A stretch of DNA of 64,000 nucleotides from the NCBI RefSeq assembly GCF_009730915.1, contig NC_052482.1, positions 372,001 to 436,000 on the forward strand, read 5' to 3'. Positions within the stretch are counted from its first letter, which is position 1. Each line of letters starts with the position of its first letter. The notes below the pieces were generated by a model that was given only the letters and a program-made list of their open reading frames with translations, ran no database searches and was not told the origin of the DNA. Shown here piece after piece: positions 39,326 to 61,197 of the stretch. A program made the position numbers and the translations under genes. Origin of the DNA: Dioscorea cayenensis subsp. rotundata. Its lineage: Eukaryota; Streptophyta; Magnoliopsida; Dioscoreales; Dioscoreaceae.

Positions 39326-39346
39326 AAGCTCCGGAGGGATAGAAGG
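39326..39346 (-). promoter_or_regulatory. 3' miR390 cleavage site of TAS3
   Basis: miR390 pairs with positions 1-17 except for a single mismatch at position 7. Positions 18-21 are unpaired. Pairing around positions 10/11 is perfect, so slicing is expected between 39336 and 39335 and would set the phase of the siRNAs upstream. Confidence 0.92.
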
Positions 39347-39441
39347 AGATGGAGAAGAAGAAGACTAAAAGAAAGAACCGATGACCGGAGACTGAAGAGA
39401 GTTCACCGGAGACCGATAACTGGAGAAAGTAAAGAGAAGGG

Positions 39442-39462
39442 AGGGTCTTGCAAGGTCAAGAG
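39442..39462 (-). ncRNA. tasiR-ARF
   Basis: The transcript reads CTCTTGACCTTGCAAGACCC then T. It matches the canonical tasiR-ARF at 18 of 21 positions; the differences are the second-last base of each end region and a T-to-C change in the middle, a variant seen in other plants. It begins one nucleotide out of the sixth 21-nt register (39461-39441) counted from the miR390 cut at 39336/39335. Confidence 0.9.
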
Positions 39463-39509
39463 TAAACCTTAAACAATTCCAAAAAGAAGAAGAAGAAGAT
39501 ATATGAGAG

Positions 39510-39530
39510 AAGCTCAGATAAGATAGCACC
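39510..39530 (-). promoter_or_regulatory. 5' miR390 binding site of TAS3 (non-cleavable type)
   Basis: The transcript reads GGTGCTATCTTATCTGAGCTT. Against miR390, positions 1-8 and 13-21 pair (position 19 as G:U). Positions 9-12 are all mismatched, which prevents slicing while still allowing AGO7 binding. This central bulge is the known signature of the 5' TAS3 site. Confidence 0.93.
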
Positions 39531-39539
39531 TTGATATAT

Positions 39540-39695
39540 CTAACAAGAAATATGATAATAATAACAAGATAAAGAGTAGTGTTTTCTTAATCCAAAGCCA
39601 AAGAACTCTAACAAGAGATAGAACTTCTTCTTGTGATCATGAAGTACTACTCCACTCTTCATTGTGATCAAGGTCATGTTCATGAATATTTCCAT
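39540..39695 (-). CDS. Short ORF of the TAS3 transcript
   Basis: The ORF has 51 codons, beginning MEIFMNMTLITMKSG and ending CYYYHISC. The TAG stop (39542-39540) lies 9 nt before the 5' miR390 site. It has no domain. In Arabidopsis TAS3 the ORF likewise ends just upstream of this site, where ribosomes are reported to stall against the AGO7-SGS3-bound RNA; here position matters more than peptide sequence. An upstream ATG at about 39802 in another frame reads past this start, so the exact transcription start decides which ORF is used. Confidence 0.7.
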   Translation of the reverse strand: MEIFMNMTLITMKSGVVLHDHKKKFYLLLEFFGFGLRKHYSLSCYYYHISC

Positions 39696-39889
39696 TGGAG
39701 GGAGAGAAGAAAAAGAGAGAAGTTTGGTGAAGAGAAGTTTGAGTAATGGTGAAGAGATTTAAAGGAGAAGCAAAAGAGAAAGAGACAAGAAGAAGAGAAC
39801 ATGTTGGTGAGAAGGTAGGAAGGGAATTAGCTAAGCTTATTGGAAACCATTGTTGAATGGAAACAAAATCTTTTAACTCTTTTTTTTTT

Positions 39890-61125: not shown

Positions 61126-61197
61126 GCGTTTGTAGTCCAACGGTTAGGATAATTGCCTTCCAAGCAATAGACCCGGGTTCGACTCCCGGCAAACGCA
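61126..61197 (+). tRNA. tRNA-Gly (anticodon UCC)
   Basis: The gene has 72 bases with no intron. The acceptor stem GCGTTTG pairs with CAAACGC, with discriminator A. The D-arm TAGTCCAACGGTTAGGATA contains box A (TAGTCCAACGG). The anticodon stem ATTGC/GCAAT encloses loop CTTCCAA, giving anticodon TCC, which reads GGA glycine codons. The T-arm CCGGG-TTCGACT-CCCGG contains box B. A T-run at about 61215-61226 is the polymerase III terminator. Upstream is AT-rich with a CAA. All stems pair fully, so the gene looks functional. Confidence 0.97.

Follow-up and report, generated by a model that had tools for sequence, protein, structure and literature searches.

A very likely TAS3 trans-acting siRNA gene with a single tasiARF on the minus strand of a Dioscorea cayenensis subsp. 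rotundata contig

Introduction

TAS3 is a plant RNA gene, the product of which is cut into small RNAs that restrain auxin-response genes. Here we describe a putative TAS3 trans-acting small interfering RNA (siRNA) gene in the region 39326-39695 of a 64,000-nucleotide (nt) stretch of the genome of Dioscorea cayenensis subsp. rotundata (assembly GCF_009730915.1, contig NC_052482.1, positions 372,001 to 436,000; G000:C12:372001-436000 in our numbering), on the minus strand. This whole stretch is referred to as the window and all positions below are those of the window; the genome comprises 584 Mb in 2249 contigs. A first-pass annotation, made from the letters of the window alone, had placed a TAS3 gene at this locus and tied it to the pathway of the microRNA (miRNA) miR390, AGO7, and the auxin-response genes ARF2/3/4.

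Two types of TAS3 have been described. Type one is reported to carry two tasiARFs (the siRNAs matching ARF genes) and a 5' miR390 site mismatched at position 10, and type two is described as short (~190 nt in apple), with one tasiARF and a 5' site bearing no mismatch at position 10 (PMC3446319; PMC3835848). According to the accounts of Camellia and cassava, copies with one and with two tasiARFs are both present in these plants (PMC10673657; PMC4124141). The 5' site of a two-tasiARF copy of Camellia seemed cleavable, so the rule separating the types is not strict (PMC10673657), and cleavage sites, the arrangement of tasiARFs, and registers may vary among the TAS3 genes of vascular plants (PMC5907777).

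In Arabidopsis, TAS RNAs are reported to contain short open reading frames (ORFs) and to be ribosome-bound up to the miRNA site (PMC5207768; PMC12127299), and AGO7 is described as causing ribosome stalling upstream of the miR390 site (PMC5207768; PMC12127299; PMC8860578). The evidence on the importance of the ribosome-bound ORFs is mixed. When the greater part of the regions occupied by ribosomes was deleted from Arabidopsis TAS3a/b/c, the levels of siRNAs and transcripts went sharply down and tertiary siRNAs were lost; for the same deletions, the authors judged that secondary siRNA biogenesis was unaffected and that the efficiency of miR390 cutting was raised (PMC12127299).

Layout of the locus

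On the minus strand, a 5' miR390 site is followed by a tasiARF-like 21-mer and this in turn by a 3' miR390 site; the two miR390 sites share one strand and lie 184 nt apart from start to start. As these ordered elements occur in the same genome as a MIR390 hairpin with the exact miR390 sequence, four more TAS3-like loci, and three ARF genes with tasiARF sites (see below for the details), we regard the region as very probably a TAS3 gene. The elements are as follows.

39510-39530, minus strand: 5' miR390 site GGTGCTATCTTATCTGAGCTT, 16/21 to the complement of miR390, predicted to be bound and not cut
39442-39462, minus strand: tasiARF-like 21-mer CTCTTGACCTTGCAAGACCCT, 18/21 to the canonical tasiARF
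39441-39461, minus strand: in-register 21-mer TCTTGACCTTGCAAGACCCTC, the sixth step back from the predicted 3' cut, starting with U and keeping the tasiARF core
39326-39346, minus strand: 3' miR390 site CCTTCTATCCCTCCGGAGCTT, 16/21 to the complement of miR390, predicted to be cut between 39336 and 39335

The first-pass annotation was borne out for the presence, place, and order of all three elements on the minus strand. The two miR390 sites tie as the best matches to the miR390 complement in the window, the next best 21-mer on either strand reaching 14. In miRNA numbering, the 5' site pairs at 1-8, 13-18, 20, and 21, forms G:U pairs at 9, 11, 12, and 19, and has a single mismatch, at position 10 (A opposite A); the first-pass annotation had described this site as mismatched at positions 9-12. 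The 3' site is paired at positions 1-6 and 8-17, mismatched at positions 7, 18, 20, and 21, and has a G:U pair at position 19. It is thus paired across the cut (positions 10-11), as would be expected of a TAS3 3' site, and agrees with the cut predicted earlier between 39336 and 39335. A genome-wide search for the 17-nt core of the 3' site, CTATCCCTCCNGAGCTT, found four copies, namely those in the window, in the TAS3-like loci on contigs C27 and C8, and in the MIR390 hairpin (none with the reversed pattern as a control).

The 21-mer at 39462-39442 is the best tasiARF match in the window, the next best reaching 14. It ends 106 nt ahead of the cut (5x21+1) and thus falls into the register of the 3' cut with an offset of one base, which is shared by the two copies on contig C7; in C27 and C8 the offset is 0. 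The earlier claim of a tasiARF at 39462-39442 therefore stands as a sequence match, and as an siRNA it needs to be shifted by one base, to 39461-39441. No second tasiARF was found within the window locus, in which the next best 21-mer matched at 12/21; only one tasiARF is present.

In its layout, the locus resembles the short TAS3 genes described in apple (MdTAS3-2; PMC3446319) and cassava (TAS3c; PMC4124141), which are likewise reported to have a single tasiARF between two miR390 sites, and the site spacing of 184 nt compares with ~190 nt in apple (PMC3446319) and 190 nt in cassava TAS3c (PMC4124141). Unlike in the short type, position 10 of the 5' site is mismatched in the window locus; the C27 and C8 copies are paired there. 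A 5' site with this mismatch and a cleavable 3' site are what it shares with the two-tasiARF genes Arabidopsis TAS3a and apple MdTAS3-1, as far as these are described (PMC3446319; PMC3835848), and in Arabidopsis TAS3a the 5' site is also reported to be preceded by a short ORF (PMC12127299). The two-tasiARF genes differ from the window locus in having a tandem pair of tasiARFs, placed 64 and 85 nt ahead of the cut, against a single one at 106 nt in the window. Judged from these sequence features, the window copy belongs to the short type by layout, yet it does not appear to be a clean member of the apple-type short TAS3 because of the position-10 mismatch in its 5' site.

Trigger, related loci, and targets in the same genome

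The exact mature miR390 sequence was found at one locus in the genome (C18:21781204-21781224), and the search gave 10 further places with 3 mismatches (reversed control, 0). The exact locus scored 85.1 bits against Rfam MIR390 (gathering score, 77) and its hairpin folds at -67.6 kcal/mol (z = -10.98). None of the 10 three-mismatch places reached the gathering score in the Rfam scan of the 11 loci. Thus, the trigger, whose absence would have told against a functional TAS3, is present as an exact mature sequence within a MIR390 hairpin. One of the three-mismatch variants, AAGCTCAGGAGGGCTAAGGCC, occurs three times, on C18 and C2072 (L038, L039, and L044).

Altogether, five TAS3-like loci with seven tasiARFs were identified, the window, C27, and C8 loci having one tasiARF each and the two C7 copies (C7a and C7b) a tandem pair each. 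A search of the genome with the DNA of the window locus found the C27 locus with a 74% match over 88 bases, and the longest unbroken identities in their alignment lie in and adjoining the tasiARF and the two miR390 sites. Across the locus, C27 and C8 agree at 71% over 214 bases; we thus regard them as distinct genes and not as assembly duplicates. The two C7 copies are ~348 kb apart and 92% alike over 796 bases. The tasiARF core reads TTGCAAG in the window, C27, and C8 and TTGTAAG in the C7 copies. The distance from the tasiARF to the cut, 106 nt in the window, is 105 nt in C27 and C8, and 64 and 85 nt in the two-tasiARF layout. In the C7a copy (L077), reading the sequence by eye suggests an apparent intron (GT...AG) just before the short ORF that precedes the 5' site.

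Allowing up to 3 mismatches, the genome-wide search for the tasiARF pattern gave 79 places (reversed control, 6). Eleven of these fall within the ARF genes or the TAS3-like loci, TTCTTGACCTTGAGTGACCCC accounts for 54, and the remaining 14 have other sequences. The TTCTTGACCTTGAGTGACCCC places, 3 mismatches from tasiARF and spread over many contigs (e.g. L058, L059, and L062), were set aside as a likely dispersed repeat: 10 of the 54 were compared, and L058 aligned with 9/9 of the others at 71-79% over 1.5-2.1 kb.

The ARF genes were located by a search for the ARF_AD domain combined with the genome-wide tasiARF pattern. Four target sites were found in three ARF genes, one each in those on C5 and C19 and two in that on C4, and each of the four encodes VLQGQE. 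A scan of the 30 ARF-family loci listed, out of 47 exon matches, with 1.5 kb on each side gave the C5 site only; those on C19 and C4 were picked up when the whole genome was searched with the tasiARF pattern. The in-register siRNA at 39461-39441 pairs with the C5 site at 21/21. Under the penalty scheme applied, its pairing penalties are 0 (C5), 1.5 (C19), and 1 and 2 (C4), and those of the 39462-39442 21-mer are 1 (C5), 1.5 (C19), and 2 and 2 (C4). When 10 exons of the three genes were searched against Pfam, AUX_IAA was found in two, one from the C5 gene and one from the C19 gene, and the other 8 had no match. An AUX_IAA exon is a feature of ARF2 and ARF4, and we place the three genes among ARF2/3/4 only tentatively; the C4 gene, with its two sites, is presumably ARF3. 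Of the three genes, that on C4 thus has the two tasiARF sites which the first-pass annotation had suggested looking for, and those on C5 and C19 have one each. The proposed link to the miR390-ARF pathway is upheld by the exact miR390 locus, the four other loci of TAS3 layout, and the three ARF genes bearing tasiARF sites.

Upstream ORF and promoter candidate

Two further features were recognized upstream of the 5' site.

39540-39695, minus strand: short ORF of 51 codons, starting at 39695 with the first ATG and ending with TAG at 39542-39540, 9 nt upstream of the 5' site
39757-39763, minus strand: TTTAAAT, resembling a TATA box, at -233 relative to the 5' site and 68 nt ahead of the start of the ORF; a weak promoter candidate

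The TTTAAAT at 39757-39763 aligns opposite a TATAAAT in the C27 copy. An ORF next to the 5' site, as known from other TAS genes, is thus present (51 amino acids, with its stop 9 nt upstream), and by analogy with Arabidopsis it probably acts in ribosome loading or stalling. On its own, the ORF is modest evidence because ~2% of random positions have an ORF this long ending no more than 30 nt upstream; in the window, 93 ORFs reach or exceed 51 amino acids.

Genomic context

At gathering scores, the only match in an Rfam scan of the whole window was a tRNA-Gly (TCC) at 61126-61197 on the plus strand, which neither supports nor opposes TAS3. We agree with the first-pass annotation that the locus would escape protein-based annotation, and the Rfam scan likewise did not report it. 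The genes flanking the locus were assigned by Pfam searches of 10 ORFs lying between 10179 and 53294.

10.2-11.9 kb: polygalacturonase-like
12.5-14.0 kb: GDSL lipase
15.2-17.4 kb: DYW-type PPR
32.2-32.8 kb: MYB
35.1-37.2 kb: 2OG-Fe(II) dioxygenase
43.3-43.8 kb: DUF538
52.9-53.3 kb: AMP-binding enzyme

Discussion

The locus appears to be a further member of a known gene class, an ordinary but genuine TAS3 gene that is well supported by its sequence and by its own genome. Several points weigh against this assignment. The promoter evidence is weak, a second TTTAAAT being found at -425. In the 3' site, miRNA position 7 is unpaired and the pairing at positions 18-21 is weak, both features being shared by the C27 and C8 copies. 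The 39462-39442 21-mer starts with C, and relative to the 3' cut its register is off by one base. Counted from the 5' site (57 nt), the tasiARF does not fall into register either, so that all depends on the 3' cut; this would fit with cutting at the 3' site alone.

The shift of one nt relative to the C27 and C8 copies and the initial C in place of U are also what could be put forward for a decayed, untranscribed TAS3 pseudogene retaining its landmarks. Nevertheless, both miR390 sites and the tasiARF core have been kept while much of the intervening sequence has diverged from C27, the shift still leaves an in-register 21-mer that starts with U and pairs with an ARF site at 21/21, and the two-tasiARF loci of the same genome carry the same +1 offset. 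We thus consider a pseudogene improbable. It is less probable still, and by a wide step, that the locus is a small protein-coding gene whose product is the 51-amino acid ORF and which is regulated by the miR390 sites. The ORF is uninterrupted from its first ATG, but the chance frequency of such ORFs given above counts against its being a product, the ORFs at the same position in C27, C8, and C7a look unlike that of the window (judged by eye), and a tasiARF flanked by miR390 sites would serve no need of a coding gene.

The least credible of the explanations is that degenerate motifs have come together by chance in DNA rich in AT and CT. Single sites of 16/21 are common enough, ~200 being expected per genome by chance (the per-position rate multiplied by twice the genome length), and 8 of 400 Markov-simulated windows contained a 21-mer with at least 16 identities to the miR390 complement. 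However, a same-strand pair of such sites within 400 nt occurred in 0/400 simulated windows, and the best tasiARF identity never exceeded 17 in these 400. Under a first-order Markov model of the window, with the motifs taken as independent and site pairs counted within 400 nt on one strand, 1.5e-6 site pairs are expected per window and 0.014 per 584-Mb genome; for the triple, a pair with a nearby tasiARF, the expectations fall to 4e-12 and 3.6e-8, respectively. This ordered triple recurs as a layout at four other loci. We regard the chance explanation as refuted by the triple expectation, the genome-wide tasiARF pattern search, the recurring layout, and the count of the 3'-site core.

For a TAS3 gene, transcription, AGO7 binding, slicing, dicing, phasing, and ARF repression at the window locus are what we infer from known TAS3 biology. 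A minus-strand transcript would carry the 51-amino acid ORF ending 9 nt before the 5' miR390 site, at which miR390-AGO7 would bind without cutting. The 3' site, ~160 nt further downstream and paired through the cut position, would be sliced between 39336 and 39335. RDR6 with SGS3 would then turn the upstream fragment into double-stranded RNA, which DCL4 would dice in 21-nt steps starting from the 3' cut, and the sixth step would release the tasiARF at 39461-39441 to silence ARF2/3/4-type genes.

More tentatively, and rather against the odds, the locus may be a hybrid TAS3 that combines the short one-tasiARF layout with a non-cleavable 5' site of the ribosome-stall type, in which case the arrangement of the ORF may go with cleavability. 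At the loci mismatched at position 10 and with readable upstream sequence (the window and C7a), an ORF stops exactly 9 nt before the 5' site; at those paired at position 10 (C27 and C8), the ORF runs into the 5' site and stops inside it. C7b was left out of this comparison as its upstream sequence reads N. The link is weakened by the small numbers, two loci against two, and by a 19-codon ORF of C7a in another frame that ends inside the 5' site.

Genes of this kind are easily missed, as the Rfam scan did not report this one and protein-based annotation would overlook it; still, the circuit is legible from one genome through one exact miR390 locus, five TAS3-like loci, and three ARF genes. The perfect siRNA-target pair predicts the ARF gene on C5 to be the one best silenced by the window copy. 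The mixed character of the 5' site and the nearby stop codon make the locus a concrete test of whether the ORF and the cutting of the 5' site are linked. Should the association hold more widely, selection at an uncut 5' site would favour an ORF with its end close ahead of the site, and the stalling of ribosomes would be connected with the mode of AGO7 that does not cleave.
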